IMG/VR virus record: IMGVR_UViG_3300030419_005541
Location: 62,001 to 126,000 of that record
Origin: a virus
Strand: one strand, 5' to 3'
DNA length: 64,000 nt
Shown: positions 3,687-34,880 of the stretch, one piece after another
Layout of the letters: each line of letters opens with the position of its first letter
How positions within the stretch are numbered: the first letter of the stretch is position 1
The notes under the pieces: model-generated
Databases searched by the model: none
Told to the model about the DNA's origin: nothing
The model's input: only the letters and a program-made list of their open reading frames with translations
Translations under genes and position numbers: made by a program

Positions 3687-4607
3687 ATGAAGCTGAAAGA
3701 CATACTAAACGAAAAGATTGAACTTGATGTAGAGATTGGTGATACTATTCTTGTAGGTAGATTTAAAAACAAGAAGTTAGTAGTAAAAGACATTGGAAAA
3801 GATTCACACGGAATGCCGACTATTAATGGTAGAAAAGTTACTACGTTTCGTACTATGAAAAAAGATGAAGCTGTAGATGAAGCTTCTGATTTCAAAAAAG
3901 CTCACAAAAAATTTAAAGAGACAGGTGAACTACCACCACACTTAAAAAAATTAGTAAAAGATTTAAATAAAGTAAAAGTAAAACACAAAGTAAAAAATGT
4001 TGTCGTTCCTGGATTAGAATGGATGTCTGATATAGATGAAGGGACTTGTGGATATAGTATTGATGGTGAAGGCGATGATGAACCTGCAGGACCACATTTA
4101 CTAAAGAAAGAAAGCAAAGAACAGATTAAAGTTATACACGACTTTCTTACAAAACATACAAAATCTGCTAAGAAAGCCTCTGCTATGATTAAAAAATATT
4201 ATAACAAAGTCAAGAAACAATTCAGAGGAGATTCTACGAGAGACATAGCTATGGCAATTATAGGCTATGATGTTATAGGAGAAGGTAAACAAGATATAGA
4301 TAAGTTGTATGCTTTCTACTCTCAAGCAATGCAAATGGTCCCTAATAGTCCACAACAAAAAAAATTAAAAACCAAGATAAAAGCTCTACGTAAGAAATTA
4401 AAGATGGATGAATCAATCATTAAAGAAATGTCTCCTGAAAAGAGAGCATTTCTTATGTTAAGAATTTATGGTGATAGTTGGAAAGTAAATTTAGGTAAAG
4501 TCTTTTCAGGAATCAATAAACAGAAACCTGGAATGATAAAGAAAGGTCTTAAAGAAATCAAAATACTCAATAAAAAGATTGAGGAAATGATAGAAGACTT
4601 AGTGTGA
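3687..4607 (+). CDS. multi-module protein with capsid-targeting-like N-terminus
   Basis: This 306-residue protein opens with MKLKDILNE, an amphipathic peptide ending Leu-Asn-Glu. It resembles the T4 capsid targeting sequence cut by gp21 after (L/I)-x-E. Module 1 (about residues 10-60) contains VEIGDTILVGRFKNKK and GMPTINGRKVTTFR. A VDE-A site (63-66) and an IDE-G site (117-120) follow. The latter leads into a GYSIDGEGDDEPAGPHLL module. The remainder is Lys-rich and helical, with a further IKE-M site. The acidic/basic mosaic with protease-like sites between modules fits a precursor of several capsid-internal peptides. The function of the modules is unknown. Its stop overlaps the next start. 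Confidence 0.6.
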   Translation: MKLKDILNEKIELDVEIGDTILVGRFKNKKLVVKDIGKDSHGMPTINGRKVTTFRTMKKDEAVDEASDFKKAHKKFKETGELPPHLKKLVKDLNKVKVKHKVKNVVVPGLEWMSDIDEGTCGYSIDGEGDDEPAGPHLLKKESKEQIKVIHDFLTKHTKSAKKASAMIKKYYNKVKKQFRGDSTRDIAMAIIGYDVIGEGKQDIDKLYAFYSQAMQMVPNSPQQKKLKTKIKALRKKLKMDESIIKEMSPEKRAFLMLRIYGDSWKVNLGKVFSGINKQKPGMIKKGLKEIKILNKKIEEMIEDLV

Positions 4608-4963
4608 TTAGTCTTAAAAAAATTTTAAATGAAGTAATTGCTTGTGGTGAATGTGTTCAATGGGCATGGAAATATTATATGACTAATCAACACGATAAAA
4701 AAGCTAAAGTTGTATTTGGTACGGTTCAGAACGATTGGGTTTCTAAAGGTAAACGATACAAGCACGTTTGGATTATTAATAAAAAAGGTATCGTAGAAGA
4801 TTGGCAAACAATGGTAGCAGGTTCAAGTAAATATGCTTTTAAGGGAATGCCAATGAAATTTTTTAAAGATACTTGGAATCCAAAAGTAAACAAAATGTAT
4901 GGAATGGAGCAAGCAGCTGAACATTTTAAAAGAACTAAAACAATGTTAGGTTGGAAGTGGTAG
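4604..4963 (+). CDS. tagged papain-like cysteine peptidase-like protein
   Basis: This is a 119-residue protein starting at a GTG that overlaps the preceding TGA (GTGTGA). Residues 1-10 are MISLKKILNE, the shared tag ending Leu-Asn-Glu. Then come CGECVQWAWKYY (Cys14 and Cys17), RYKHVWII (His54) and VEDWQ (Asp66). The Cys, His and Asp order and spacing resemble small papain-fold/NlpC-like proteins of phages, with Cys17 the likely nucleophile. The length is short for a full peptidase, so it may instead be an amidase-like or inactive relative. Inference: it is carried into the capsid by its tag and acts on the host envelope or cytoplasm after ejection. Confidence 0.55.
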   Translation: MISLKKILNEVIACGECVQWAWKYYMTNQHDKKAKVVFGTVQNDWVSKGKRYKHVWIINKKGIVEDWQTMVAGSSKYAFKGMPMKFFKDTWNPKVNKMYGMEQAAEHFKRTKTMLGWKW

Positions 4964-4972
4964 AGACCTCGT

Positions 4973-5188
4973 ATGATTAGACTTGAGATAAAAGGAAATA
5001 AAGAACAAACAATTACAAACGTGTGTAATGAGTGTGGTCGTAAAATAAAAGATTTAGAACTTCAAGATATTGTAGTAGCACCAAAACCTGATATGAGTTT
5101 AACGTTACACGATTCTGAAGGTAAAGACATAACACGTACTGAAATAGACGAAGATTTAAAAGTATCTAAATGTGTAAATTGTGCTTGA
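4973..5188 (+). CDS. small zinc-ribbon protein
   Basis: This 71-residue protein has two Cys-x-x-Cys knuckles: CNEC (Cys18, Cys21) near the start and CVNC (Cys67, Cys70) at the end. That is the usual four-cysteine pattern of a zinc ribbon. The stretch between is acidic and beta-like (DIVVAPKPDMSLTLHDSEGK). It has no N-terminal capsid tag, unlike its two neighbours. It lies nine bases after the peptidase-like gene and 14 before the next tagged gene, so it is part of the same operon. The partner (nucleic acid or protein) cannot be told. Confidence 0.55.
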   Translation: MIRLEIKGNKEQTITNVCNECGRKIKDLELQDIVVAPKPDMSLTLHDSEGKDITRTEIDEDLKVSKCVNCA

Positions 5189-5202
5189 CTTTATGGTAAA
5201 TT

Positions 5203-5967
5203 ATGATTAAATTAAAACAGATATTGAGAGAGTATATCTCTACAGGTCAACTAAATCAAGTTGAAAAGTATCTTGATAGAGTTTGGGCTAAAGTTGGTAT
5301 TGATGTAGAGTTTACTAAACACTTTCACGATAGAGTGAATGATGCACGAAATATCAAACCTATTTCTACAGCTGAAGTAATAAAGATATTTAGAGAAGTG
5401 TATAAAAAGTTTGGTAAACAAATATCTACTTTACCTGATGGTATTAATTTACTTTTTAAAGATATGAGAAGTGACATCAATGTTCCTGTAGTATTAAGAT
5501 ACGACAAATTAAATAAAGAAATAGATATGATATCAAAAACGGTTATGAGAAAAAAGAATTTCAAGTCAAGTACTAAAAAGTATTCTGTAGAAAATAAATT
5601 AAACGAAAGAGTAGATTATTTACATATAGGACAAGAGTTAGTAAAAGCATATGGTTTAAAATCAAAAGTTAGATTTACATCAGGAAGTACATTAGCAGAA
5701 TATGTACCTGAAACTGATACGATATACCTCAGACGTTCATATCCAAATATGAAAGAATTTGTAATAACTATACTACACGAAATCAAACACGCTCTTGATG
5801 CTAAACAACTTGGTAGAAGAAAATTTATAAAGAAATATGCTCAAGCAGGTACAATGGCTCAGTACAAAGGATTAGACCCTCACGATGATAATAAGTGGGA
5901 AGAACGTGCTGAGAGATGGGCGAGAAACGAATTTAAACGTATAAAAAATAAATTGAATTTTAAGTAA
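5203..5967 (+). CDS. tagged two-domain protein with HExxH-type zinc metallopeptidase domain
   Basis: This is a 254-residue protein. Residues 1-10, MIKLKQILRE, form the shared tag. Domain A (about 11-130) contains HFHDRVNDARN, DMRSDINVPVVLRYD and KTVMRKKNF, a conserved phage module of unknown function. An LNE-R site (133-136) follows. Domain B (136-254) carries LHEIKHALDAKQLG: His192 and His196 flank Glu193 in an HExxH zinc motif. It is followed by KWEERAERWARNEF, whose Glu233/234 could be the third ligand, as in ImmA/IrrE-type gluzincins. Inference: gp21-type cleavage at the tag and at LNE-R would free a small metallopeptidase inside the head. The substrate is unknown. The ATG lacks a strong Shine-Dalgarno. 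Confidence 0.65.
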   Translation: MIKLKQILREYISTGQLNQVEKYLDRVWAKVGIDVEFTKHFHDRVNDARNIKPISTAEVIKIFREVYKKFGKQISTLPDGINLLFKDMRSDINVPVVLRYDKLNKEIDMISKTVMRKKNFKSSTKKYSVENKLNERVDYLHIGQELVKAYGLKSKVRFTSGSTLAEYVPETDTIYLRRSYPNMKEFVITILHEIKHALDAKQLGRRKFIKKYAQAGTMAQYKGLDPHDDNKWEERAERWARNEFKRIKNKLNFK

Positions 5968-6132
5968 TTTAGGTAATACTTATTATTGTAATAACGTTAT
6001 ATACACACTCTCTAAAGGTTTCATTTAAATCTAATAGAACCTTTATGGATACTGATTAAAACGTTACACTTAGCAATTAACTAATATAACTTAATAACTA
6101 ATAGCTTAAATAAACTAAAACTAATATAGTAT
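5968..6132 (+). other. intergenic region without a gene
   Basis: About 165 very AT-rich bases separate the tagged-protein block from the replication block. Two copies of AACGTTA are present (near 5994 and 6060). A weak imperfect hairpin is possible between AAAGGTT (6014-6020) and AACCTTT (6038-6044), with a 17-base loop and no U-tract. This may hold a promoter for the nuclease-primase-recombinase unit, but no clear consensus is visible. Confidence 0.3.
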
Positions 6133-6462: not shown

Positions 6463-6463
6463 T

Positions 6464-10487: not shown

Positions 10488-10489
10488 CC

Positions 10490-10502
10490 TTATATTTATA
10501 TA
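10490..10502 (+). promoter_or_regulatory. candidate promoter motif (TATTTATA type)
   Basis: TTATATTTATATA lies just after the recombinase stop and about 40 bases before the giant fibre start. The same core recurs upstream of other transcription-unit heads in this window. No mapped transcript supports it. Confidence 0.4.
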
Positions 10503-10542
10503 AAACGAAGAGTACCTTTCGGGAGGAAAACGTTTAGATATT

Positions 10543-13500
10543 ATGGCCATTAAAAGAAGAAAAAATAAATTACAAGACCTCGCCGCTTCAGGCATAGTAA
10601 CAAATAGAGTATCAGGTTCTATACCATTTGAGTATGAAGGACCAAATTCACCTTTATTTACAATATCTGAAATACCTCCTTCTGTACCTCAAGGTAAATC
10701 ATCATTTCTTATAGCAGGTACCGAATTACTAAAAAATAGTATAGAAGTCAAGATAGAAATTATTGATAGTGAAGGTGGTGTTATCTACACCGAACCTGTT
10801 GCTAATTATCTTGAAGGTAATGCACGTAGAGTTTCAATAGAAGTCTATGATGATACACCGCCTGGTCCTGCAAATCTTTATGTTTTAGCACAAGTAGACC
10901 CTGAAGAATGGGAAGACGAAACAGGTACAGATGTAACAAATTTTCCATCACCAAGACCTTTACGAGCAAAAGGTAAACGAAGAAAGAAAAGAAGAAGAGA
11001 CAGAGAAAAACGTAAACAAATGAGAGGGATGCCTCGATTTGATGTACCAAGAAGAGGAGGCGGAGGTAGATTTTTTGTAAATCCTAATTTTAGACCACCA
11101 CCAGGAAACGATACAAGATTTAGAAGGAGAAGAGGCAGAAGAAGACGAGGTACGACTTCTGATATTTCAGACCAATATAATTTTATACAAAAAGTACAAA
11201 TGCAAATTGTACCGACTGCTACTAATACAGAAAAGATTTTATTTTATCAAGAACCGAGACTTAGAGTATTTGAAGCATTTAAACCATTTGTATCTAATAT
11301 AGCACCTTCTGCTTCTATAACATCAACAGGTTTTGGTATTACAGGAACGGTTATACAAGATACACAAGGTTCAGCTGCTGCTTCTTCGCTCGATACTTTT
11401 GGCGCGGCTATAAATACCTTTCGTAAAAAACGAAAGTTTAGAAAGTTTGCAGTTAAAGGTGGTTTAAGTAAACGTAAAAGAATAACAAGAAGAGCTTCAC
11501 CTGAAGTAGATAACTATTCTCTTAATGTAGGAAATAATTTTAATTTTACTTCAGAACACGTAGGAGCAGATTTAACTTTAACAAGTATTTCTGTTGACCA
11601 AAATGAATTTCCCGCATCAAGATTTAAAGCAGATAGTTCAGGTACAGAAGTAGCTAATTCTACAGCTTCATTTGAAGTACGAAAAGTAAAAAATAGTTTT
11701 ACTATAATACCTGATAAATCTTTTCAATTATTTGATAATCAATTATCACAACTTGTTGACGCACCATTAACAAACGCTTCGTTTAGTTTAGAATTTCCAA
11801 ATCCTGTAACACAATCAATATCTATTACTAACTTTAGAAGTTATGCAGATGTACGTGTTTCAAACATAAGAACTTTTTCAGGTGATGTTTTTAGAGCAAA
11901 GATTTATAGAAAGTCTGAAGAAAGTATAAGTGACTATGAATTATTTGCAGATTTACCATTAGAATCTTCTGAGTTACTTTTAAATAAGAATGAAGGTACA
12001 GGTCTTGAAAGAACAGGATATTTTGTAACACAATCAGACGCAGTTGATTATTGGGAGGTTAGTCAAAGTTACCAAGGACTAACAGGTCTTGCCGCTACCG
12101 CATCTGCTAAATATGATATAGATAAAATAATGGATGCTATTCATATTTCAGGTTCTAACTATGAAGAAAATGATTTTGTAAAATTTACACTTAAAAAATC
12201 ACATTCGTTTATTCTTGAAAAAGATGTTGATTATGATTTCTCTGCAGAAATATATGGTATAGCTAAACCAAAAATTGTAACACCGGAAGAAGGACCTGCT
12301 GTAACAAAGAGTATGGCAGAAATGGAAGTTTTTATAAGTGGTTCTAATATTCCTGCACAACAAGGAAACGAACCATTTGGTGCTAAAATTGGTGCGCTAA
12401 GAATTAATGATGGTTCTTTAGAAAAAGATTTTGGAATAGTTACAGGTGATTTTGAATCAACTGCAAATAGTTCAAATTGTATTATAACATTTAAAGTAAA
12501 TGCGGGTCAATTTTATTTATCTGATTTAAGTATAAGACCTGCAACTGAAACAGGTTTCTCTCCTGACTTATTTACGTTTCAAGCACCGATGCCTGAAAAC
12601 GAACAACGACCTGAAACATATGAATTTTTAGCAGAGTTCTATGATGTAAATAATAATCAAGCAGACGCTTTTGCATTTACACCATCAGGTTCAGTATTTC
12701 AAGGTAGTAATATGGTTATTGGTGGTGGCGATAACGTTATGGAAAGTAACTTATTCATTGGAGGAGAAACTACTGCGAGTGGTATGCACTTAGGTGGTGT
12801 TAAATCAACGGTACCTGAACAAGGTGGAGTATCAGGCGCTGAAGGTTCTGCATTTATGCGTTCAGTTGGTTACACAGGATTCACAAGTGCATCAGTAGCA
12901 GGTAAAGGCGGTAAGCCTGGTTTTATGTTCTATAGTGGTTCTATATTACCGAGTAGTGGCGATAACTATAAAGGTGTGGGACTTGAGTTAGTTGGTGAAA
13001 GTGGTTCATTACGATTTGGTACAAATCCAAGTAGATTTGAAGTTAAAGCAGATGCGTTCTTTGTTGGAAGACGACATCAAGATTCTTCAACAGGTATAGG
13101 ACAATTTATATCAGGTGCGCTTGGTAACGTAGAAATAAGTTCAAGTAACTTTCATTTAACACGAGCCGGTGATGTTACGATGCAAGGAACTATAACTGCT
13201 ACCGCAGGTGCTATAGGTGGTTTTGGTATTTCTGCACAAACGATAAGTAGTTCTAATAATAATTTAATATTAAGAAGTACAGGAGAAATAACAGGTTCAG
13301 AAGTTTTATTTACAGGCGGTAAGATAGCTTCGTTTGAAATATCTGATAGCGTATTAAAAAACGGAAATAATTTTTTTATAAGTGGTTCTGCTACAGGAAA
13401 TAAATTTTTCATATCATCATCAAACTTTAATGTTAAAGCAAGTGGTGATGTAACAGGTTCAAACGTTTTATTTGAAGGCGGTACGATTGGTGGACTCACA

Positions 13501-17142: not shown

Positions 17143-18214
17143 CGGTGAGTTAACAATGGGAAATATAAACGGAGAACATACTACAGGTAATTATAGTACT
17201 TTAGTTGAAACTACGGTTGATTTACAAGCTTTATCTACAGAAGCAGCTGCTACTTGGGATGATGGTCCTGATGGTTCTGAACCACACGCGATGGGTGAAT
17301 TTTATAGTTTATCTAAATCAGGTTGTTTTGTAAAAGGAACTAAAGTATTGATGGCAGACAATACCACTAAAAACATAGAAGATGTAGTTGTTGGAGATGT
17401 AGTTCAAACTATTGATAGCAATCAAAAAGTAAAAAAAGTACTTTCACATCCTGCTACTAATAGATTGTATAGTATAAATGGAAGTGTTGGATTTGTTACA
17501 AGTAATCATCCATTTTATACAAAAAATGGTTGGAAGATAATTGATATAGAAGCGCGTGATGAGAGACAGCATTATGTTGAAAAACAACCTTTGACTATTG
17601 GTGATTTTGTAAGAACAGATAAGGGTTGGGTAGAGATAACAAGTATCATTTGTGAAAGAGACGGGAATTCTGATGAATTGTTTTATAACCTATCTATTGA
17701 AAACACAAAATCATATTATGCGGATGGATTTTTAGTACATAATAAATGTTTTGTCGGTAATACATTAATTAATATGGCAGACGGAACACAGAAGACAATA
17801 GATAAAATTGTTGTAGGAGATATGGTAGATACTATTTCAGGTTCACAAGAAGTGACACGAGTAGAATCGCCAACACATAATAATCTTGTAGAGTATGTTA
17901 CTGAGAGACATATAACAAGATGTACAGACGACCATCCTTTTTGGTCTTATGATAAACAAAGTTGGGTTTCTAATAATCCCTCTGCTTCAATTTCATCATA
18001 CGGAATTTCTTGTGAACAGGTTACTACAGGTTCGTTTTTTCAATTACCTGGAATAGGACCATATGCGGCAAATAATTCCCCAGGTTTAGATAATTTTCCC
18101 TTTTATACGTTATATAAAATTAATGATGTTACAGGTTCATTTCAAACTTATACTTTTAGTACAGATTCTCAAACCTATTATGCTGATAATAAATTAGTAC
18201 ATAGTGAGATTTAA
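17126..18214 (+). CDS. virion-associated protein with two tandem Hint (intein-like) domains
   Basis: This is a 362-residue protein. Residues 1-60 (MAIPSSGELTMGNINGE to HAMGEFYS) match a short N-terminal domain common in phage fibre proteins. Hint domain 1 starts at Cys67 (CFVKGTKVLM), has the TSNHPF block and ends with FLVHNK. Hint domain 2 starts at Cys208 (CFVGNTLINM), has TDDHPF and ends KLVHS at the C-terminus. Cys at the start, Thr/Asp-x-x-His and terminal His-Asn are autoprocessing residues of inteins and bacterial intein-like domains. There is no endonuclease domain and no real C-extein after domain 2, so self-cleavage is likelier than splicing. It lies between the giant fibre and the lysozyme. 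Confidence 0.8.
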   Translation: MAIPSSGELTMGNINGEHTTGNYSTLVETTVDLQALSTEAAATWDDGPDGSEPHAMGEFYSLSKSGCFVKGTKVLMADNTTKNIEDVVVGDVVQTIDSNQKVKKVLSHPATNRLYSINGSVGFVTSNHPFYTKNGWKIIDIEARDERQHYVEKQPLTIGDFVRTDKGWVEITSIICERDGNSDELFYNLSIENTKSYYADGFLVHNKCFVGNTLINMADGTQKTIDKIVVGDMVDTISGSQEVTRVESPTHNNLVEYVTERHITRCTDDHPFWSYDKQSWVSNNPSASISSYGISCEQVTTGSFFQLPGIGPYAANNSPGLDNFPFYTLYKINDVTGSFQTYTFSTDSQTYYADNKLVHSEI

Positions 18215-18753: not shown

Positions 18754-19644
18754 ATGGTTAAATTAAAAGAACTAATAGAAGCGACTAAATCAGATAATAG
18801 TCCTGGACCTAAAGGATATGCTCCTTTTGTAACACCTGAAAAATTCAAACAATATAAAGCATACCTCAAACGTATTTTTGAGACAAGTGGTATGAAGTTG
18901 ATTAATGAAGGTGTTGATGATAAAGGTATTTTGAAAGCAATCTTTTTAGCAGGTGGTCCTGGCTCAGGTAAAACTTGGGTTACACGAGGATTATATGGTA
19001 TACCAAGTAAAATGAACTTTTCTGTTGGTGGTCTTAAACTTGTCAATCAAGATACTGAATTAGAATTTTTATTAAAGAAGTATTTCGGAACTACTGATTT
19101 AGATAATATGCCTGAAGAATTATTTGCAGATATAACAGGTGTAGACTTCAAAGGTAAAGAAGTTGATATGAATAGTGGTATGAGAGCATACGCTAAATCA
19201 TTAACTAAAGCAAGAATGGAAAGTTATGTTCGTGGTCGTTTAGGAGTTATCGTAGATGGTACAGGACACAAATATCAATCTATAGCAGGAAAAAAACAAA
19301 AGATGGAAGATTTAGGATATGATTGTTATATGGTATTTGTCAATACATCTTTAGAAATAGCACTACAAAGAAACTCTGAAAGAGATAGAGTAGTACCTGA
19401 AAAAATTGTACGTGATAGTTGGCACGATGTTCAACAAAACTTAGGTGGATTTCAAAGATTATTTGGTCGTAACTTTTTAATTGTTGACAATAGTAAGACA
19501 CTTGATGAAGACGAAGCACAGAAAAAATTTGATTCATTAGTAAAACAAGGTGTAAACAAATTTATGAAAGCACCTGTTAAAAATAGAATTGGTATTAATT
19601 GGATAAAAAGAGCGAGACTACTAAAAAAACAGGGAATAAAATGA
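18754..19644 (+). CDS. tagged P-loop kinase (zeta toxin / polynucleotide kinase-like)
   Basis: This is a 296-residue protein. Residues 1-9, MVKLKELIE, followed by Ala, form the shared capsid-targeting-like tag. A linker region ends at INE-G (50-53), a second possible protease site, immediately before the kinase. Walker A is GGPGSGKT (67-74). LGVIVDGTGHKYQS is the Walker B-like strand seen in AAA_33/zeta-toxin/PNK-type kinases. TSLEIALQRNSERDR supplies the Arg-rich lid. The substrate could be a nucleic acid 5' end, a nucleotide or a small metabolite. Both protease-like sites fit release of a free kinase domain inside the head. The stop overlaps the next start (ATGA). Confidence 0.75.
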   Translation: MVKLKELIEATKSDNSPGPKGYAPFVTPEKFKQYKAYLKRIFETSGMKLINEGVDDKGILKAIFLAGGPGSGKTWVTRGLYGIPSKMNFSVGGLKLVNQDTELEFLLKKYFGTTDLDNMPEELFADITGVDFKGKEVDMNSGMRAYAKSLTKARMESYVRGRLGVIVDGTGHKYQSIAGKKQKMEDLGYDCYMVFVNTSLEIALQRNSERDRVVPEKIVRDSWHDVQQNLGGFQRLFGRNFLIVDNSKTLDEDEAQKKFDSLVKQGVNKFMKAPVKNRIGINWIKRARLLKKQGIK

Positions 19645-20677: not shown

Positions 20678-23155
20678 ATGAGCAAACTTTCAGATTGGTT
20701 AGTCCAACCTATTATAGAAGAAGACATAACCAAAAATCCTAAGATAAAACGAGCATTAAAAAAATTAATTGATAATAATCTTTTACCCAAAACATACGCA
20801 AAAGATATTAATAAATTACAAAGTTTTTTAAATACAAATCCACAAGTATTCACTTCTTTGTTAAAAGTTTTAGGAGAAAAGAAAAGTAGTATTAGTGTGA
20901 AAGAACAAAAAGGTGATGTTGTAGTAGTTTATTCAGGAAGATTTCAACCGTTTCATATAGGTCACTACTCAACGTATAAGAAGTTAACACAAAAATTTGG
21001 AAAAAACAAGGTTTTTATTGGTACAAGTAATAAAACACAACCAGGTCGTAGTCCTTTAAATTTCAAAGAAAAGAAATCTATTATTACAAAGTTCTTTAAC
21101 ATATCACCTAAGATGATTGTACAAGTTCGTAATCCTTATTCACCTGTTGAAATATTAAAAGATTTTCCTAAAGATACTACATATATAGCCGCAGTAGGAG
21201 AAAAAGATTCACAAAGATTAAAAGGTAAATATTTTAAACCATATAAAACAGGAAAAACAATTCCTTATGAAGAAGGAGGATTTGTTTTAGCAGTACCACC
21301 AACTGATTTTAAAGTAGGTGGCGAGCCTGTAAGCGGGACAAAGGTACGAGCAACTTTTGGTGGTTCCGTGAATATGTCTGCCAAAGAAGAATTATTTAAA
21401 AGAATGTATGGAAAGGTTGACAAAAAGATATTACAATTTTTGATTAAAAAGTTTGGAGGCACTTTAACAGAAGCAACTACGACGGTACAAGGAAATCTTG
21501 ATGATGGTCCACCAACTTATTATGCGAGTTATGATGATTATAAAAAATTCTCTACTGCTTGGTTGTTGGACCTTTATGGTGAAGATTGGGAAGTATTAGA
21601 CCATTTGATAAGTGCAGAGTTTGACCCTATTGAAGATTATACTTTAAAATATAGTACGGTGCCTGCAGTTTCATATATGGATGCAGGTACAATTAAAGGT
21701 TCTAAAGATGCAGTAAAAAAATATAAAAAATTTATACAAAGAATAACAGATGATTTTGGTTGGGATGTTGTCAAATGGTTAGGTACAGATGAAGCAGAAA
21801 AGAGTTTAACAGGAACTATTGTTTCTGCAGGTGTTGGTGGTAAGATAGGTGATTATGACGTTGAACTAAAAGAAAATGTATTTTCAGATTCTAAACAACT
21901 ATTTATAGAAGAGAAAGAGTTATTATTAATGGGTGGAGCATATGGACATCTCGCTCATCCTTTCGATGACAATAGGTTAACATTTAGAGATTTAAAAACA
22001 ATGATAGATTTAGCACTTCAAGGTAAACTTGAAAGTGTGTCGGAAAAGACAGATGGTCAAAATCTTATGATTTCCTATATTGATGGAAAGGTAAGAGCGG
22101 CACGTAATAAAGGACAATTAAAAAACTTTGGAAAAAATTCTCTTGATATCAAAGGCATACAAAATATGTTTGCAGGTAGAGGAGAAATAGAAAAAGCATT
22201 TACATACTCTATGAGAGATTTAGAGATAGCTATTAAGAAGTTAAGTAAAAAAGATTTAGATAATATATTTGGTAATGGTAAATCTTTTATGAGTTTAGAG
22301 GTAATGTATGTGCCTACTACAAACGTTATACCATATGGTATAAATATGTTAGTGTTTCACGGGACTATGACTTATAACGAAAAAGGTGAGCCTATAGGAC
22401 AAAGCAAATCTGCAGGTTCAAAGTTAACAAAATTAATTAAAAAAGTCAACGCAAATGTTCAAAGACATTTTGATATACAAGCATTACCTAATACTAAATT
22501 ACCACAAGTAAAAAATTATGAAGCTAAAAAATCTTCATTTTTAAAAAGAGTAGATAAATTACAAAAACAATATGGTCTCAAAGATTCAGATACTGCAGGT
22601 GATTATCATCAACATTATTGGTTAGAATATGTTTTAGCAGGTGCTAAGTCAAATGGTTATCCTAATCCTACAGATAATGTTTTATATAGTTTGATGAAGA
22701 GATGGGCGTTTTTTGATAAAAGTTATAAGATACCACAAATTAAAAAAGATTTAAAAGAATATCCTAAATTTTTAGATTGGGTATTAACTACTGACAAAGT
22801 AGACCATACAAAAATATGGAAGCAAAACGTTTCTGCATTTGAAAGAATATTTCTTGATTTAGGTGCAGAAATATTATCTAATATGGAAAACTTTTTATCT
22901 GCTAATCCTACAGAAGCCGCAGTTAAAATGAGACAAGAATTAGCAAAGACAATAAAGAAAATACGTTCAAGTAAAGATTTGAGAACTATAGATATGATGA
23001 AAGCACAACTTGAAAAAGTTCAATCTATGGGTGGATTTAAAAAATTAGTTCCTACTGAAGGAATTACTTTTATGTTTAAAGGTAAAGTTTACAAACTAAC
23101 AGGTTTGTTTGCACCTATAAATCAAATACTTGGAATGTTAAAATATACGAGGTAA
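20678..23155 (+). CDS. multidomain nucleotidyltransferase plus KTDG ligase-like protein
   Basis: This is an 825-residue protein. Residues 1-70 are helical (MSKLSDWLVQPIIEE). At 81-260 is a cytidylyltransferase-fold domain with YSGRFQPFHIGHYSTYKK, whose HIGH motif (93-96) binds ATP as in NMNAT, FAD synthetase and PPAT. LTE-A (263-266) is a probable protease site. A middle module starts DDGPPTYYASYDDYKK. LKE (397-399) and FIE-E then lead to an ATP-grasp/ligase-like domain with SEKTDGQNLMISYIDGK, where Lys457 is the expected nucleotidylation site of RNA/DNA ligases. FMSLEVMY may be motif III. Possible roles are NAD or nucleic-acid repair. The boundary sites suggest capsid packaging and cleavage into separate enzymes, which is inference. 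Confidence 0.7.
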   Translation: MSKLSDWLVQPIIEEDITKNPKIKRALKKLIDNNLLPKTYAKDINKLQSFLNTNPQVFTSLLKVLGEKKSSISVKEQKGDVVVVYSGRFQPFHIGHYSTYKKLTQKFGKNKVFIGTSNKTQPGRSPLNFKEKKSIITKFFNISPKMIVQVRNPYSPVEILKDFPKDTTYIAAVGEKDSQRLKGKYFKPYKTGKTIPYEEGGFVLAVPPTDFKVGGEPVSGTKVRATFGGSVNMSAKEELFKRMYGKVDKKILQFLIKKFGGTLTEATTTVQGNLDDGPPTYYASYDDYKKFSTAWLLDLYGEDWEVLDHLISAEFDPIEDYTLKYSTVPAVSYMDAGTIKGSKDAVKKYKKFIQRITDDFGWDVVKWLGTDEAEKSLTGTIVSAGVGGKIGDYDVELKENVFSDSKQLFIEEKELLLMGGAYGHLAHPFDDNRLTFRDLKTMIDLALQGKLESVSEKTDGQNLMISYIDGKVRAARNKGQLKNFGKNSLDIKGIQNMFAGRGEIEKAFTYSMRDLEIAIKKLSKKDLDNIFGNGKSFMSLEVMYVPTTNVIPYGINMLVFHGTMTYNEKGEPIGQSKSAGSKLTKLIKKVNANVQRHFDIQALPNTKLPQVKNYEAKKSSFLKRVDKLQKQYGLKDSDTAGDYHQHYWLEYVLAGAKSNGYPNPTDNVLYSLMKRWAFFDKSYKIPQIKKDLKEYPKFLDWVLTTDKVDHTKIWKQNVSAFERIFLDLGAEILSNMENFLSANPTEAAVKMRQELAKTIKKIRSSKDLRTIDMMKAQLEKVQSMGGFKKLVPTEGITFMFKGKVYKLTGLFAPINQILGMLKYTR

Positions 23156-23157
23156 TT

Positions 23158-27821: not shown

Positions 27822-27834
27822 TTTTCAATAAGGA

Positions 27835-27848: not shown

Positions 27849-27870
27849 ACTTGGAAGAGTTGGAGTTAAA

Positions 27871-28725
27871 ATGATTAAACACAATAAAGTTAAAAACACA
27901 GCATTTTTATATGAATGTTTGACTCGGCAGATAACTTCTGACGTATTGTCAAATGTAGAACCTTCACCTGCCTTAGATATTGTAAAAGAATTTTTTAGGC
28001 CTACTACTATATTAGGTAAAGAATTAGTTCTTTATAAAGCACTTACATCTAAGAAGTTAAAGAATGAAGGTAAAATAAATTATTTAGTAGATTCAGTTTT
28101 ACGTGAAAGAGCTAAGTTGAACTATAGTGATATGCGTAGAGCAAGATACAATTTAGTAAAAAAGATTACTGAAAGCTACGAATTAAAAGATTTTTTTAGA
28201 ACACGAATTTCAAACTTTAAAGATATAGCGTCTGTTTATAAATTATTCGAAATTCAACACAACTCCAATCCTTTCGAAGAAACAGAAATACGATTTATTG
28301 TTATGGAAAATCTTAAAGATACAGATTCACCTAAAACAGAAAAAACTTCTGTAGTGGAAAAATTTGAAAAAGAATCAAAAGATTTAAGATTATTATCGTA
28401 TAAAATACTTGTAGATAAGTTTAATCAAAAATACTCCAACCTTAATGAATCACAACGTGATTTGTTAAAAACATATATTAATAACATATCAAATACAAGT
28501 ACTTTAAAAGAGTTTATGTCTGAAGAAATTAAAACTCTTAAAGAAAAAATCTCAAAGATTCATCCTAAGATTGATGACAAGGTCGTTTCTATTAAATTAA
28601 AAGAATGTTTGAATGTTCTAAAAAAATTAAATAAAGGAAATGTTGTTAACGAAGAACAACTTATCACAATGATGAGATTCTATAATCTTTTGGATGAAAT
28701 TAATGCAGCAGTCGATAAAGCGTAG
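27871..28725 (+). CDS. conserved head-region protein of unknown function
   Basis: This is a 284-residue, mainly helical, charged protein. It starts MIKHNKVKNTAFLYECLTRQ and contains FFRPTTILGKELVLYKAL and YSDMRRARYNLVKKI. No enzymatic motif, signal or membrane segment is seen. There is no N-terminal capsid tag. Its location between portal and the tagged internal proteins, and its helical character, fit a prohead assembly or core factor of the sort T4 encodes with genes 67 and 68, but no sequence match to those is visible. Its 3' end overlaps the next gene by about 20 bases. Confidence 0.55.
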   Translation: MIKHNKVKNTAFLYECLTRQITSDVLSNVEPSPALDIVKEFFRPTTILGKELVLYKALTSKKLKNEGKINYLVDSVLRERAKLNYSDMRRARYNLVKKITESYELKDFFRTRISNFKDIASVYKLFEIQHNSNPFEETEIRFIVMENLKDTDSPKTEKTSVVEKFEKESKDLRLLSYKILVDKFNQKYSNLNESQRDLLKTYINNISNTSTLKEFMSEEIKTLKEKISKIHPKIDDKVVSIKLKECLNVLKKLNKGNVVNEEQLITMMRFYNLLDEINAAVDKA

Positions 28726-29218
28726 CGAAATATTTGAAATCATAAAAGAGATTCTTCGTGAAATGATGAACGAAGCATCCGTAACAGGAAATATTGCTGG
28801 TTATGAAACTCCAAACGCTTTTTCAGGCGGTCTTGCAAAAAACAAAAAGATGAAAAAAGATTTAATTAAAAGACTTCATATGAAGTTGGTTGGTAAGATT
28901 GATGAAAGTAAAGATGATGTAAAGTTAATGAAAGTCTATACTATGAAAGATAGACCACCATTTAAAGTAACTGAATCAAGATATCACGAGTATCGTAATG
29001 ATGAGACTCGTACACCCAAACAAAAGATTTGGCATAGTGTAAAAGAAGTTCGTGATAGTTTACAAAATCTTGACAGAAATTTAAAACACGCTATCAAGTT
29101 AAAGACCGAACAAGGAATGGATTCAAGAACATATTATAAATATGCTCGTAATAGTTTTCCAAAGATACAAGAAAAATTAATTAAGATGGCAAAAAAAGTT
29201 GGGGAGTTAAGCGCGTGA
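28703..29218 (+). CDS. probable capsid-internal / core protein with targeting-like helix
   Basis: This is a 171-residue protein from ATG 28703; ATG 28694 is an alternative adding MKL. The first 24 residues are an amphipathic helix (SEIFEIIKEILREMMNE) ending Asn-Glu before Ala-Ser, the tag pattern with a likely gp21-type cut. The next segment NIAGYETPNAFSGG is a motif I recall from head-region proteins of marine T4-like phages. The remainder is basic and helical. The mature product would be a basic, possibly DNA-associated capsid-interior protein. It overlaps the previous and next genes, and lies just upstream of the protease gene. Confidence 0.6.
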   Translation: MQQSIKRSEIFEIIKEILREMMNEASVTGNIAGYETPNAFSGGLAKNKKMKKDLIKRLHMKLVGKIDESKDDVKLMKVYTMKDRPPFKVTESRYHEYRNDETRTPKQKIWHSVKEVRDSLQNLDRNLKHAIKLKTEQGMDSRTYYKYARNSFPKIQEKLIKMAKKVGELSA

Positions 29219-29568
29219 GTACATATAAAAAAATGATGGCAGAAGCATTTGGTATTCAAGAAGGTAAAATTGAAGCTCGTGAATTAAAACTTTACATAGA
29301 TAATGATTCTGCTTTATATAGACAAAGATTTATGCCTATTATGAGAAATCTCAGTAACCATATGGCAAAAAATAGATATAAAGATTCTCTTGCTGTAAAA
29401 GCTTTTATGTATTTAGCCACAGCAGGAGCAAAGAAATATATTAAAGATTTTGGAGGAGATAGAAATACTTTTTCTAAAGCTGATTTAAAAGCAGTTGCCA
29501 AAGAATTTGTAGAAGAATTTAAAGATTCGTATGAGAATGAAGAATACGATTTTATGGGGAGAAAATAA
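29215..29568 (+). CDS. small internal protein with T4-like capsid targeting sequence
   Basis: This is a 117-residue protein starting at a GTG that overlaps the preceding TGA. The N-terminus MSTYKKMMAEA is strikingly like the T4 internal protein tag MKTYQEFIAEA: same length, Thr-Tyr at positions 3-4, and Ala-Glu before Ala at the cleavage point. The remaining part is a compact helical domain (YRQRFMPIMRNLSNHMAKNR) with no enzyme motif. It is the clearest capsid-targeting sequence in the window. Prediction: it is packaged in the prohead, cut after Glu10 by gp21 and ejected with the DNA. Confidence 0.65.
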   Translation: MSTYKKMMAEAFGIQEGKIEARELKLYIDNDSALYRQRFMPIMRNLSNHMAKNRYKDSLAVKAFMYLATAGAKKYIKDFGGDRNTFSKADLKAVAKEFVEEFKDSYENEEYDFMGRK

Positions 29569-29569
29569 A

Positions 29570-30835
29570 GTGAAAATTTTAGAAGAATATAAAAGATTTG
29601 CCGAAGAATTACTTATTGAAGCTGATGAACAACAGCCTCTTGATGATAAAGAAAAAGAAAAAGCTAAAAGTCAAGGACTTGTCCATCTTGGTGGAGGTGC
29701 ATATGGTAAAAAAGGTAAAGAAGCCACACATAAAAATGTTGATGGTAAACTTGAACCAATTGATAAAGATGGTGATGATGATGGTGCAGATGATAGTCAA
29801 AAATTAAGCGGTAAATCAGATTTCTCAAGAGATGGCGGAGATACTCCTCCTGAAGCCTGGGATGTTGAGGACGAGTTTGGTGGTGAAGATAGTGAAGTTG
29901 CAAAATATTTGAAAAGCTTACAAGGCAAGGAAGATGATGAAGACGAGTGGGATGATACATCTATGGGACAACGCAATCGCAGTTATGGTGGTAGAGGATT
30001 TGGAGATGATTCAGATGGTGGTGATGATAAACCAAAAGCAGACGAACCAAAAGCAGACGAACCAAGAGGTGCTGCGATTGTCGGCAAAACGGGAAACGCT
30101 GAACAATCAGCAAGTAAATTATCAGATATTATTGATGACGCAAAAGACCATGAAGGTAAAATGCCTAAAGGTGTTGCACGTCAAGTAGCACAATACGAAG
30201 CAGATATTTTAGCTCGACAAGGTATAAACAAAAGTCCGGATGGTACGTATTCAACAAGTGATTACGATGAAGACGAAGACGAAGTTATTTACGAACCAAT
30301 GTCTGAAGAAGGAATAATAAATGCAATCGCGCGCGAAACAGGCAAAAGTAAAGATGAAGTTGTTGCTATGAGAGCTATGGCAAAGGAATCAAACCCAGGA
30401 GTGTTTCCTGAAGATAAAGGTGATGATGAAAAAAGTGGAGAAGAGAGTATTTCTGACGAAGATTTAAAAGATACAATTTTACAAGATTTAAATCCAAGTC
30501 GTGATTCAGATAGAGATGAACGTGGTTTACCTAATAGTAAAGAAGATTGGGAAAACGAAGTAGAAGAAGTTGATAGCGCGTTTAAAGATGCAATGGAATA
30601 CTACGAAAGAACGAAGAAAGAATATGAAGATGAGTCTGTAACTGATGACCCGGAAGAAAGAGAGTATTTAAAAGATAGAGCACAAAAAGCTGAAAAAGAA
30701 TTTATTAAACGTAGAGCTGTTAGAGATGCTTATAAAGAAAAAGGTGAAACCTTAGGTTTATTTGACCACGTTGAACCTAAAAAGAAACCATTTCTAAGAG
30801 AACAATTAGAACGTATTGGTGGAGGAAAATACTAA
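29570..30835 (+). CDS. acidic tagged internal/core protein
   Basis: This is a 421-residue protein read from GTG 29570, one base after the preceding stop. The start is chosen because it gives the N-terminus MKILEEYKRFAEELLIEADE, a tag-like helix ending Leu-Ile-Glu before Ala. Residues about 25-60 contain AKSQGLVHLGGGAYGKKGKE and THKNVDGK, a module known to me from other phages. The rest is very acidic and Gly/Asp-rich (DKDGDDDGADD and similar), with a tandem KADEPKADEP. The acidity resembles prohead core or scaffold proteins that are degraded on maturation. It overlaps the protease start by one base. Confidence 0.6.
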   Translation: MKILEEYKRFAEELLIEADEQQPLDDKEKEKAKSQGLVHLGGGAYGKKGKEATHKNVDGKLEPIDKDGDDDGADDSQKLSGKSDFSRDGGDTPPEAWDVEDEFGGEDSEVAKYLKSLQGKEDDEDEWDDTSMGQRNRSYGGRGFGDDSDGGDDKPKADEPKADEPRGAAIVGKTGNAEQSASKLSDIIDDAKDHEGKMPKGVARQVAQYEADILARQGINKSPDGTYSTSDYDEDEDEVIYEPMSEEGIINAIARETGKSKDEVVAMRAMAKESNPGVFPEDKGDDEKSGEESISDEDLKDTILQDLNPSRDSDRDERGLPNSKEDWENEVEEVDSAFKDAMEYYERTKKEYEDESVTDDPEEREYLKDRAQKAEKEFIKRRAVRDAYKEKGETLGLFDHVEPKKKPFLREQLERIGGGKY

Positions 30836-31440
30836 TGAAACAATTAATAGTAGACTATATACCATTTGAAGTTGCTCCTGAGACAATCAATGAAGCAATG
30901 TCTTCTAATGGTAAACTAATCGTGAAAGGCGTTCTACAACGTGCAGAAGCGAAAAATCAAAATGGTCGTGTTTATCCTATGGACTTACTTCAACGTGAAG
31001 CTAAAAAGTACACAAGTAATTTTATAAGAGAAAAGAGAGCATTAGGTGAGTTAGACCATCCTGATAGTTCTGTTGTAAATTTAAATAACGTTTCTCATAA
31101 TGTGTTAGAAATGAATTGGGATGGAAATGATTTGAAAGGTACAATCGAAGTATTGACTACACCAAGTGGAAATATTTTAAGAGAATTATTTAAAAGTGGT
31201 ATTAGACTTGGTATCTCTTCACGTGGATTAGGTTCTGTTGAACCAATGAAAGAAGATAAAGATGCGCAAGAAGTACAAAACGATTTTGAATTGATTGCAT
31301 TTGATTTTGTTAGTAATCCATCTACACACGGAGCATTTATGAATCCTGTTAACGAAAGTGTTAATCGTGATGAACAAATACGTTCAGGTAAGTGGCACGC
31401 GGTAGATAATACTATAGGAAAAATTTTAAGAGGCGAATAA
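30835..31440 (+). CDS. gp21: prohead core protease (gp21)
   Basis: This is a 201-residue serine protease of the T4 gp21 family. RALGELDHPDSS contains the catalytic His (His75) and GIRLGISSRGLGSV the nucleophilic Ser (127-131 region). FELIAFDFVSNPSTHGAF is the conserved C-terminal motif. It cleaves scaffold, capsid and internal proteins after (L/I)-x-E during head maturation. Its own N-terminus has TINE-A (18-21) and its C-terminus PVNE-S (171-175), possible self-processing sites. The gene starts inside the stop of the acidic core gene and ends sharing one base with the next ORF. Confidence 0.93.
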   Translation: MKQLIVDYIPFEVAPETINEAMSSNGKLIVKGVLQRAEAKNQNGRVYPMDLLQREAKKYTSNFIREKRALGELDHPDSSVVNLNNVSHNVLEMNWDGNDLKGTIEVLTTPSGNILRELFKSGIRLGISSRGLGSVEPMKEDKDAQEVQNDFELIAFDFVSNPSTHGAFMNPVNESVNRDEQIRSGKWHAVDNTIGKILRGE

Positions 31441-32810
31441 TGCCTTTTAAGTCTGAAAAACAAAAACGATGGATGTATGCTAATAAACCTAAAATGGCTA
31501 AAAAGTGGGAGAAGAAAGTGAAAGAACAAAAGCTAAATGAGAATCCAGCAGTAATAGCAACTGCGGCTCGCGCGGCTATAGAAAAAGCAAAAGAAAAAGA
31601 CATTTCTCCTGGCGTAAAGGTAAAAACTGCTGCAAATAATCCAAACCATAAAGACCATAAAAAAGCAAAAGGTATTATACAAAGAATTAGAGATAAAGCA
31701 AAAGCGGCAATAGATAAAATTAAAAATAAAAAAGGTAAAGAAACAAAAAAAGCTGAACCAAAGAAACAATCTAAATCAGATGCTGACCATTATGCAAGAC
31801 AATTTGGTGTTAAAGAAAATGCAAAACAACAATTAAAAATGTTTTTTGAAAAAAATGTTCCAACTAATCCAACTAAGTGGTCATATTACAAAAGTCGAGC
31901 AAAAGAAAAATTTGATGTTTATCCATCAGCTTATGCAAATGCTTGGGCTGTTGACCAATATAATGATGCTGGTGGTGGATGGAAAAAAGAAAAGAAAAAG
32001 AAAAAAGAACAAATTGGTGAAGCTAAAATAAAAAGATGGGAACAAATACCAAAAAGTGGAACTATTGATTTTGGTAAATATGGTAGATTTGTAATACTAA
32101 GTACAAACGATTTGAGAGTTAGTGGAAAATTTGTATCAGGTTCTGCTAAAAGTAATAGAACAATTACATTTTATTCTGATAAAGGAAAAACTTATTATCG
32201 TAAAAGAAAAGGATTGAGCATATCAGATACTCCATCATTTCCTTTTGATAATGTTAAATCTATAAAAGAATCCGAAGTAAATGAACGTATGCCATATAAA
32301 CGCTCTTTTAAAGGACAACGGAAAACGGGTGATAATTACCTAGGCGGTTCAAGTGACAACAGAGGAAATAGAAGTGAACTATATCAAGCTAAAGACGGAA
32401 AATTTTATATTTGGGTACAGAGTGGCGGTGCTGAAGGTTACATAGACTTACCTAAAAACATAAAAAATAGAGGTGAGGCTGATGATATACATCTTGACCT
32501 TCGGGATAAATTTAGAAAAAAGAAACCAATTAAAGTTAAAGGTAAAACTCTCAAACCCGAATCTGTAAATGAAGATGTACTAAATGAAGCAACTTATGTA
32601 AAAGGTAAGATGATGGTAATATTGAAAAATTCATTTATGGATGTACATGGAGGTTTAGTTAAGAATGTGACTTTATCAGATTCTTTATCTGACGAAGCAA
32701 GATACAGATTAGGTATGTTTCAAAAAAGAATGTCTGCGGCTCGTGAAAATTATGTTAAAGCAGTTATGAGAGCAAGTAAACCATTTGATAAAGAGATAAC
32801 CGGAGTATAA
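31440..32810 (+). CDS. multi-module basic protein with repeated gp21-type sites
   Basis: This is a 456-residue protein. The start MPFKSEKQKRWMYANKPKMA is a recurrent phage module. Candidate protease sites are LNE-N (32-35), IGE-A (192-195), VNE-R (280-283), VNE-D (376-379) and LNE-A (381-384). They divide the chain into a Lys/Ala-rich basic segment, a module with KFDVYPSAYANAWAVDQY (DUF5872-like), a beta module (IPKSGTIDFGKYGRFVILST), a module with MPYKRSFKGQRKTGDNYLGG, and a C-terminal helical unit. No catalytic residues are evident. The design looks like a polyprotein of small capsid-interior proteins, processed by the protease encoded immediately upstream. Confidence 0.6.
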   Translation: MPFKSEKQKRWMYANKPKMAKKWEKKVKEQKLNENPAVIATAARAAIEKAKEKDISPGVKVKTAANNPNHKDHKKAKGIIQRIRDKAKAAIDKIKNKKGKETKKAEPKKQSKSDADHYARQFGVKENAKQQLKMFFEKNVPTNPTKWSYYKSRAKEKFDVYPSAYANAWAVDQYNDAGGGWKKEKKKKKEQIGEAKIKRWEQIPKSGTIDFGKYGRFVILSTNDLRVSGKFVSGSAKSNRTITFYSDKGKTYYRKRKGLSISDTPSFPFDNVKSIKESEVNERMPYKRSFKGQRKTGDNYLGGSSDNRGNRSELYQAKDGKFYIWVQSGGAEGYIDLPKNIKNRGEADDIHLDLRDKFRKKKPIKVKGKTLKPESVNEDVLNEATYVKGKMMVILKNSFMDVHGGLVKNVTLSDSLSDEARYRLGMFQKRMSAARENYVKAVMRASKPFDKEITGV

Positions 32811-32811
32811 C

Positions 32812-33477
32812 GTGGCTAAGATTCAAGTACAAGGTATTGGAATGTTTACTGATGATACTCTTAAAAAGAAAATTATACAATTAGCAAATGATTTACAAAA
32901 GAACGCTAAGAAAGGTAATTGGAATAAAGCATCTGAAAATGGTATCAGAGCATTAGGTCGTATGTGGGGAGCATATCAAGAGTGGTCGAGAAATAACGAA
33001 TCTGTAAATGAAGCTGGTATGGAACTAAATAAAATTAAAGATGCTATATTAATGTTTCAAAAGAAGATTAAGAAACAAGGTAGCGTTACTAATGCGAGAG
33101 ATGAAGACCACCTAAAGAATCTAATCAAAGTTTATAAACAAATGGGTGGTAAGGGAATTAAAGAAGGAAAACTTAATGAAAGAATGAAAACTCCTTTTAT
33201 AGTACATCCTACTGACCCTGACCAAACAGAAAGACATTTTGTTAAATTATTTAAACAACTTGCTAAAGGTCATCCAAGTCCAATTGATTACGGACCGAGA
33301 GAATCTGATATGTATGATTGGAATGATAGACGTAATTACTATAAAGCAATAGAAGAATACAATAAGTATATGAATAAAATTGCTGACGGTCTTAATAAAT
33401 CACTTGATGAGATGAACAACATTTGGAAAACTTGGACAAAGATACGAGACAAACATCGTAAAAAAGATAAAAGTTAA
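32812..33477 (+). CDS. helical mosaic protein with internal gp21-type sites
   Basis: This is a 221-residue protein from GTG. It has no clear N-terminal tag, but the sites SVNE-A (65-68) and LNE-R (121-124) separate three helical segments of roughly 65, 55 and 97 residues. Segment 1 includes KGNWNKASENGIRALGRMWG. Segment 3 includes FIVHPTDPDQTERHFVKLFK and a Trp/Tyr-rich stretch. Function is unknown. Location between the polyprotein and a tagged gene suggests it belongs to the same cargo or core group. Confidence 0.5.
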   Translation: MAKIQVQGIGMFTDDTLKKKIIQLANDLQKNAKKGNWNKASENGIRALGRMWGAYQEWSRNNESVNEAGMELNKIKDAILMFQKKIKKQGSVTNARDEDHLKNLIKVYKQMGGKGIKEGKLNERMKTPFIVHPTDPDQTERHFVKLFKQLAKGHPSPIDYGPRESDMYDWNDRRNYYKAIEEYNKYMNKIADGLNKSLDEMNNIWKTWTKIRDKHRKKDKS

Positions 33478-33479
33478 TA

Positions 33480-33938
33480 ATGATTAAGATAACAGATATA
33501 TTAAATGAAAGTAAAACTTCTAATATGATGAAAGCTATTCGTAAACACGGAACTGCGGGACCTTGGGATATTATTGTAAGTAAAAATAATAAGATAGCAA
33601 AACGAGTATCTGTACAAAATTTAAAAGAGATACCAGCAGAAATGGATGATGTAAAGAAAAAATTTCCAAACCATAAGATTGGTATAGAAGCAAAAAGTGG
33701 CAAGATAGCTTATAGAGAAGATAATAGTTGGTCTAATAATAAAGCAAAAAAGAAAGCTGATGTTGCTAAAATTATAAAAAAAGATATGGCTCTTATTATA
33801 AGCGGCGGGAAACCGAAAGGTGGATACAACGGCAACACAGGTGAAATTTTTGCTTGGGCTGATTCAAATTCTAAACGAGGTATGAGATACACGGTAAGTG
33901 TTGATACCGTAAGAGATATGTTAAGAGAATTACCATGA
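33480..33938 (+). CDS. tagged basic internal protein
   Basis: This is a 152-residue protein beginning MIKITDILNES, the tag pattern ending Leu-Asn-Glu before Ser. The mature part has a beta/alpha module (GPWDIIVSKNNKIAKRVSVQ), KIGIEAKSGKIAYREDN, a basic helix and GYNGNTGEIFAWADSNSKRG near the end. No catalytic motif is recognised. It is Lys-rich, compatible with packaging beside DNA. The start follows the previous stop by two bases. Confidence 0.55.
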   Translation: MIKITDILNESKTSNMMKAIRKHGTAGPWDIIVSKNNKIAKRVSVQNLKEIPAEMDDVKKKFPNHKIGIEAKSGKIAYREDNSWSNNKAKKKADVAKIIKKDMALIISGGKPKGGYNGNTGEIFAWADSNSKRGMRYTVSVDTVRDMLRELP

Positions 33939-33972
33939 TAAAATTAAATAAAAATATTTTAGGAGATAAATA

Positions 33973-34260
33973 ATGGCAACAGCAGATGCAGGAGGAATGC
34001 ACCGAGAAAAAAGAAAAGATGCTTACAGCCTCGGTGATTACAATAAAGTAACATACGTAGCACCAAACTCAATGGTAGCATTCACAGGTTCAATGGCGAG
34101 CGCTGCGGTTTTGATTGAAAATGCTACAAATGTAACACTTAATTTAAATAATGGTGGTAGTATGACAGGTGCATTACTAAATACTAAAGAAATACATCCA
34201 ATCGGTGTTAACAAAGTAACAATAGGTGCTACAGGCAAAGTACACGTATTACATAGATAA
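33973..34260 (+). CDS. small beta-rich structural protein, possible head decoration
   Basis: This 95-residue protein has a strong Shine-Dalgarno (AGGAGATAA) before the ATG. It begins MATADAGGMHREKRKDAYSL and then has regular beta segments (VTYVAPNSMVAFTGSMASAA, VTLNLNNGGSMTG, VTIGATGKVHVLHR). It has no tag and no cleavage site. Its size and fold type would suit a head decoration or small virion protein, but that is a guess from size and position only. Confidence 0.5.
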   Translation: MATADAGGMHREKRKDAYSLGDYNKVTYVAPNSMVAFTGSMASAAVLIENATNVTLNLNNGGSMTGALLNTKEIHPIGVNKVTIGATGKVHVLHR

Positions 34261-34280
34261 AATTTATAACGGAGATTCTA

Positions 34281-34880
34281 ATGAAAATTAAAGATATAAT
34301 AAAAGAAAATTCTGTTCTTGTTAGTCCAATAAGAACAATCAGACCGATTGGTGATACAGGCTCACAAATAAAAATGTCTGATTTAGTAAAAGAAGACGAA
34401 CAGAATGAAGAAAGAAAAATCGATACAAATGCTTTTCTTGGTATGGTTAACAGATTTGGTCGTATCGGTGAAGATATTAAAGTCAATGACTTACGTGGTA
34501 TAGCTAATGTGTTAAAGAATGTTGCTGAAGTAGCAAAGATTCATACAGAGTCTTTACAAGAAGATTGGTTTGATAAAGTAACCGTCACACGTAATATGAA
34601 AGAATTAAATAACTATTCAAGGCAGTTTAGTAAAATTGCTCAAGAGGCCGCAAGTCTTCAAGAACGTATGCGTGGCCTATATGAAGATATGGGTAACATT
34701 ATGGGTCGTTATTATGAAATCAATGAAGAACTTACAGAAGACGATGATTATGATGAGTTTTTTCAAGCCGCACTTAAAAAATTTGATGCAAGTTCTCCTG
34801 CTGATATGGATGGTGAAAAGAAAAAGAAATTTTTTAATTATGTAGATAAAAATTATGATGCTAAGGATGAGAGGGACTAA
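34281..34880 (+). CDS. tagged helical internal protein
   Basis: This is a 199-residue protein starting MKIKDIIKEN, the tag pattern ending Ile-Lys-Glu before Asn. There is another possible site at LVKE-D (about 36-39), and acidic residues follow. The rest is helical with SRQFSKIAQEAASLQERMRG and a Tyr/Asp-rich tail. SPADMDGEKKKKFFNYVDKN near the end is a module I recall from related phage proteins. No enzyme signature is visible. The bS21 gene begins at the base after its stop. Confidence 0.55.
   Translation: MKIKDIIKENSVLVSPIRTIRPIGDTGSQIKMSDLVKEDEQNEERKIDTNAFLGMVNRFGRIGEDIKVNDLRGIANVLKNVAEVAKIHTESLQEDWFDKVTVTRNMKELNNYSRQFSKIAQEAASLQERMRGLYEDMGNIMGRYYEINEELTEDDDYDEFFQAALKKFDASSPADMDGEKKKKFFNYVDKNYDAKDERD

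Follow-up and report, generated by a model that had tools for sequence, protein, structure and literature searches.

Ten proteins encoded in the window, by which we mean the whole stretch of 64,000 nucleotides analysed here (positions 62001-126000 of a 126.5 kb virus record), carry at their N-termini a tag that, judged from the sequence, is real, specific and T4-like. T4 is the textbook case of a phage that packs a few proteins by means of a short tag, and we conclude, with a probability of about 0.83, that the present set represents an expanded and modular version of the internal-protein system of T4. The nearly identical ten-residue label that this phage and its relatives have on many unrelated proteins, enzymes included, suggests that these phages load a protein toolbox into the head for delivery to the host.

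In the mechanism that we propose, the short amphipathic peptide at the N-terminus (in its typical form M-(x)-K-h-x-x-h-h-x-E; h, hydrophobic) would bind the prohead core and bring the attached protein into the assembling head, where the gp21-family protease would cut after the Glu and free the mature protein. The freed protein would remain with the packaged DNA and the enzymes, at least, would enter the host at infection. The bodies are exchangeable modules (a kinase, a nucleotidyltransferase, a metallopeptidase-like module and several unknown domains), encoded either by separate tagged genes, as is mostly the case in the window, or within a single long protein that starts with a tag and has further h-x-E sites between its modules. 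From the sequence evidence, packaging and cleavage in this phage appear highly probable, and ejection of the tagged proteins into the host moderately so.

All the nine N-terminal peptides listed by a sequence-only reading of the window were recovered; the list was incomplete, having missed a tenth, longer member at 20678. Table 1 reports the tagged proteins together with the head genes, and proteins are referred to below by the start positions of their genes.

Table 1. Tagged proteins and head-gene positions in the window (arrows mark predicted cut sites).
Feature	Positions	Strand	Remarks
MKLKDILNE↓KIEL tagged protein	3687..4607	+	VGDTIL-type N-terminal domain
MISLKKILNE↓VIACGEC tagged protein	4604..4963	+	GTG start
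MIKLKQILRE↓YIST two-module protein	5203..5967	+	module A, joint NKLNE↓R, module B
MVKLKELIE↓ATK P-loop kinase-like protein	18754..19644	+	
Cytidylyltransferase/NMNAT-like protein, long tag MSKLSDWLVQPIIE↓E	20678..23155	+	tenth member
Terminase position	24438		sequence reading and gene order
Portal position	26025		sequence reading and gene order
Protein whose long N-terminal helix ends in MMNE↓ASVTGN	28703..29218	+	between portal and protease, core-protein position
MSTYKKMMAE↓AFG tagged protein	29215..29568	+	GTG start; core-protein position
Acidic protein starting MKILEEYKRFAEELLIE↓ADEQ	29570..30835	+	GTG start
Prohead protease, gp21 family	30835..31440	+	presumed cutter; Peptidase_S77 97.2 bits, cut-off 27
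MIKITDILNE↓SKTS tagged protein	33480..33938	+	
MKIKDIIKE↓NSVL tagged protein	34281..34880	+	directly before scaffold-position gene
Acidic protein in scaffold position	35223		
Major capsid protein	36257..37864	+	predicted propeptide end QLVKE↓ASQ

The window contains a T4-type head block, with terminase, portal, protease, scaffold and major capsid protein positions, in which the gp21-family protease gene sits beside the tagged genes. QL(I/V)xE↓(A/S) is conserved as a predicted site at the expected propeptide end in the major capsid proteins of the group, and a site of matching specificity is predicted in the major capsid protein of this phage. Since this site matches, a protease of the needed specificity is probably encoded by the phage. 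The genes at 28703, 29215 and 29570, between portal and protease, occupy the place of T4 core genes 67 and 68; given that some tagged genes lie at such places, not all of them need be cargo. Two further head-block proteins show similar-looking internal sites, QKLNE↓NPAV in 31440-32810, and SVNE↓AGM and KLNE↓RMK in 32812-33477; both are possibly cut and are without a short N-terminal tag.

A near-identity DNA search of phage records with the window gave no match. By capsid protein, the closest cultured relatives are Microcystis phage Mel-JY01 (54%) and Flavobacterium phage immuto (52%), with Rhodothermus phage RM378 more distant than both. In immuto, two adjacent proteins at 12588-13888, with the N-termini MADNFNLRSFLTE↓NKLTKNAQLLKE and MENFDLKKFLVE↓NKLTTNSKILKE, appear to carry a different kind of tag that has two sites. 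Elsewhere in the window, a Hint/Vint (intein-type) domain protein (17126-18214) adjoins a protein of 2,199 residues that has a Peptidase_S74 chaperone domain at its end, the tail gene region encodes a 1,990-residue protein consisting largely of Thr/Ser-rich repeats (TTLETITTYNTT and similar; 48990-54962), and an island between virion genes (56018-60734) resembles, by eye only, a sugar- or surface-modification cluster, with synthase-, cupin-, radical-SAM-, dehydrogenase- and transferase-like proteins. Outside the window, at about 31559-32923 of the record, three adjacent proteins have pilin-like N-termini (GFTLIELIMVM...), which is odd for a phage.

As for the tagged proteins themselves, the 3687 protein has an internal site, AVDE↓ASD, ahead of a second module; its relatives keep both the tag and the junction Glu, and its domain also occurs inside long fused proteins. 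Six homologues of the 4604 body have a tag in front (e.g. MIKLTQILRE, MIKLKEILNE and MIKLRQLISE). The 4604 structure model was poor (pLDDT 58) and a fold search with it gave no meaningful match; a cysteine peptidase, for which the basis would be only conserved Cys, His and Asp, is not claimed. In the 5203 protein, module A covers about residues 12-131 and the zincin-like module B, with HEIKH, residues 133-254. The 18754 protein has a second predicted site, LINE↓GVDD, ahead of the kinase domain. The 20678 N-terminus, MSKLSDWLVQPIIEED, resembles MDKLTEWLTKPFLEEDILNE, the N-terminus of fused proteins in relatives, and the protein has a second conserved domain, EKTDG, besides the nucleotidyltransferase domain.

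Within the head block, most of the 78 relatives of the 28703 family have a helix ending h-x-E before a STxxxPGY or TGxxxGY stretch, and relatives of the 29570 protein show the N-termini MKLKKLLNE, MIKLSDITKLIIE and MKILDSYKEMMYQFINE. The 34281 family is the tagged family of widest spread (46 relatives matched), and its members keep the tag (MAKLKDIIKE, MANIKLKDLLNE, MSKKIKLKDLLEE). The 28703 and 29570 proteins are looser members because of their longer helices with several h-x-E steps, as is the 18754 protein because its tag is shorter by one residue; the 20678 protein is also loosely counted among them. The 18229 protein (MLVEFKEIIE↓A) fits the bare motif, and was excluded because it looks like a lysozyme by sequence reading and these residues are retained within the domain in its homologues.

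The tag was compared with chance over the 151 genes of the 126.5 kb record, using shuffled N-termini and internal stretches as the two nulls. The sequence-only reading had defined the tag by an (I/L/M)-x-E ending; placed at residues 7-12, this bare motif gave 18 matches, compared to 11.7-13.4 expected, and its genome-wide count alone is therefore not above chance. The T4-like spacing [KRTS]-h-x-x-h-h-x-E, derived from T4 and window sequences, gave 8 matches, compared to 0.4-0.6 expected. By place, the bare motif was found in 10 of 30 genes at 3.6-35 kb and in 8 of 121 elsewhere (p=3e-4), and the T4-like spacing in 6/30 and 2/121, respectively (p=8e-4), these p-values being not fully independent, because the zone came from the sequence-only reading and the pattern in part from the same sequences. 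The four matches to a stricter form, K-h-polar-polar-h-h-x-E, all lie within this zone. As a control, the same patterns applied to T4 recovered IPII, IPIII and gp24, and Alt in a looser form, with a few other matches.

An out-of-sample test was provided by 80 related contigs, retrieved with the protease gene, for several of which longer stretches were read. The consensus tag K-h-x-x-h-h-x-E was present in 95 of their 1,177 non-redundant proteins, where shuffled N-termini predicted 0.4 and internal stretches 1.3, an excess of about 70-fold or more. Comparing N-termini across the record and its relatives, an analysis that had been suggested together with the original list, revealed an excess of the full-spacing tag in both. 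The bodies behind the consensus tag in relatives form 16 families; near-identical tags such as MIKLKDLLNE, MIKLKELINE and MIKLKDLIKE precede bodies without detected similarity, and both one body with different tags and one tag with different bodies were seen. In four long relatives, tagged genes accounted for 11 of 114 genes in the head and cargo blocks, as set after inspection, and for 3 of 366 elsewhere (p=1.7e-5).

The relatives also disclosed a modular and polyprotein side that the initial reading did not see. Specifically, the modules of the 5203 protein occur there as A alone, A-B, A-C-B, C-B and B alone, and many of these forms start with a tag of their own; a Glu, with a hydrophobic residue at the second position ahead of it, almost always precedes module B. 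For the 18754-type kinase, h-x-E lies close before the domain in 15 of 16 contexts, be it after a tag, within a longer polypeptide or, as MIPFILKE↓G, in Pelagibacter phage HTVC008M, the sixteenth being cut short by its contig, and for the PRKKGQ module directly before it in 8 of 8; the 32-residue upstream scan for h-x-E is lenient, because this motif also arises by chance in such a span, and it is the exact-position cases that carry weight.

In several relatives, one frame of 1,216-1,372 residues, which starts with a tag (e.g. MDKLTKYLIE), joins the kinase to the 3687 domain and the 20678 nucleotidyltransferase; in the window these are separate genes. Fused proteins of the relatives span 800-1,370 residues and have h-x-E sites at the joints. 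We see an even chance that many aquatic T4-like phages, forming a large group, produce enzyme polyproteins for packing into the head. A single tag would then take a whole chain of modules into the prohead, where the prohead protease would cut it at the h-x-E joints into separate enzymes, to be injected together; since one cut site would serve tag and joint alike, modules could move freely from stand-alone tagged genes to the polyprotein and back.

Regarding the likely activities of the cargo, the 18754 kinase gave matches above cut-off to AAA_33 and Zeta_toxin and, among solved structures, matches L-seryl-tRNA(Sec) kinase, while the 20678 protein matches the CTP_transf_like domain. Profile searches with the EKTDG domain of the latter found no recognised family. 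An RNA ligase in the C-terminal part of the same protein was considered and not supported, as this domain showed no profile match to nucleotidyltransferase ligases and only the conserved EKxDG motif. Module B of the 5203 protein scored 22.7 and 25.3 bits with MPTase-PolyVal, below the cut-off of 27.5, and gave weak fold matches to small zincins, including ArdC and abylysin; in the 5203 structure model it is the only well modelled part (blocks about 72-95). Injected enzymes modifying nucleotides, RNA or proteins could plausibly serve early takeover or counter-defence.

One tagged enzyme can be linked to virions through cyanophage S-SM1. In purified S-SM1 virions a putative cytidylyltransferase of cluster T4-GC190 was detected, and the text consulted does not report N-terminal processing of this protein (PMC3037559). 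The T4-GC190 cytidyltransferase of S-SM1 corresponds to gene SSM1_190, with the N-terminus MKKFSAFLNE↓AERSF, in T4 register and the only strict tag match within the surrounding 30 kb; its cut site is a predicted one. SSM1_190 belongs to PHROG 395, which also matches the 20678 nucleotidyltransferase domain, with a weak direct pairwise similarity; it is shorter than the 20678 protein and not fused to an EKTDG domain. This is a family-level link and not a proof for the phage studied here.

The tagged proteins could instead be prohead core or scaffold components, docked by the peptide and trimmed or destroyed by gp21, with no injected cargo. The positions of 28703, 29215, 29570 and 34281 in the head block around the protease, like those of T4 genes 67, 68 and 22, are in keeping with this, as is the near-universal presence of the 34281 and 28703 families in relatives. 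However, the bodies that look like a kinase, a nucleotidyltransferase or a metallopeptidase do not resemble scaffold proteins, many of the tagged bodies differ from scaffold genes in being rare and in varying from one relative to another, and the tagged enzyme relative of S-SM1 persists in mature virions, all of which renders this explanation improbable.

Very improbable, in our judgement, is an N-terminal helix targeting something else (a membrane, a replication site, the tail or a host complex), with the terminal Glu incidental. Amphipathic N-terminal helices have many roles, and several tags have K, R or Y as the predicted P1' residue, which are not known as gp21 sites; yet the Glu is kept at module joints within long proteins, where there is no N-terminus, the spacing is the same as in the T4 capsid targeting sequence, and the tagged genes cluster with head genes. 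This clustering, the excess of full-spacing tags in relatives and the retention of tag residues while codons drift also speak against chance combined with recent copying of one functionless N-terminal stretch between genes, an explanation that is strongly disfavoured and scarcely credible, even if the bare motif is near expectation genome-wide (18 vs about 12.5) and identical residues in the tags share their codon modestly more often than codon use predicts (0.68, compared to 0.54 expected). Judged from their DNA, the tags were not copied recently.

We therefore retain the expanded, modular internal-protein system as the preferred explanation. The interpretation given in the sequence-only reading is only partly supported, because some members may be core or scaffold proteins and the short motif, as written, is near chance; its core inference of an expanded T4 system is very likely right in kind. 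The comparison with T4 drawn there agrees with the register of the tags, the gp21-family protease, the capsid protein site, the head-gene clustering, the enzymatic bodies and the tagged relative in cyanophage virions.

If this explanation is true, the tag would be a searchable signature predicting the injected protein repertoire of uncultivated T4-like phages from sequence, and many hypothetical genes would become testable early-infection effectors. In addition, enzyme chains cut apart inside the head would be a new twist on the T4 system, and new short tags would be at hand with which to load phage heads with proteins. The ability of T4-like phages to pack varied cargo by means of the tag has been suggested in a review (PMC9026906). 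When we searched the literature for descriptions of such an enlarged set of tags in T4-like phages, the only papers that came up dealt with T4, giant phages and P1-type phages, which, with limited coverage of subscription papers, does not prove that none exists.

By comparing the present set with known systems, similarities appear with the polyvalent proteins, multi-domain proteins built of enzyme modules, for which packaging and delivery have been proposed (Iyer et al. 2017, PMC5512222). In those of phages and plasmids a zincin-like metallopeptidase is a common module, which module B of the 5203 protein may resemble, and several enzyme domains in one polypeptide, which characterise polyvalent proteins, are found in the longest fused frames of the relatives. 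Unlike in polyvalent proteins, the modules here are connected through one tag and sites of the gp21 type, and they are also encoded by tagged genes of their own. The giant phages phiKZ and SPN3US have gp175 or gp245 prohead proteases and many internal head proteins, several head proteins being cleaved after x-E by this distant gp21 relative; those of SPN3US include RNA polymerase. The SPN3US propeptides are mostly long (111-254 residues, with two of 20-24) and are not described as a shared short tag (PMC10052503).

In the ten-residue targeting sequence of T4 IPIII, residues 4 and 7 serve targeting and residues 8 and 10 processing, and gp21 cleaves after L/I-X-E (PMC9026906). MIKLKQILRE, MIKITDILNE and MSTYKKMMAE have hydrophobic residues at positions 4, 7 and 8 and Glu at 10, and the nine-residue tags are offset by one at the N-terminus relative to the T4 register. 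The tag consensus is MIKLKDLLNE here and MKTYQEFIAE in T4, a distant phage lineage. The T4 gp23 propeptide ends in FLTE↓A, and that of the vertex protein gp24, MAKINELLRE↓S, is nearly the same as MAKLKDLLKE; gp24, for which the T4 record lists gp21 cleavage, is a shell protein, unlike cargo. The ten-residue tag, the gp21-family protease and the unrelated bodies behind one tag are common to this phage and to T4 IPI-III and Alt, and the T4 system also has at least one tagged enzyme, Alt. Unlike in T4, there are many more body families, enzyme modules are exchanged between genes, and fused proteins of relatives have extra predicted sites at their joints. In conclusion, the present system is new in its scale, in the exchange of modules and in the fused forms that have sites at their joints.
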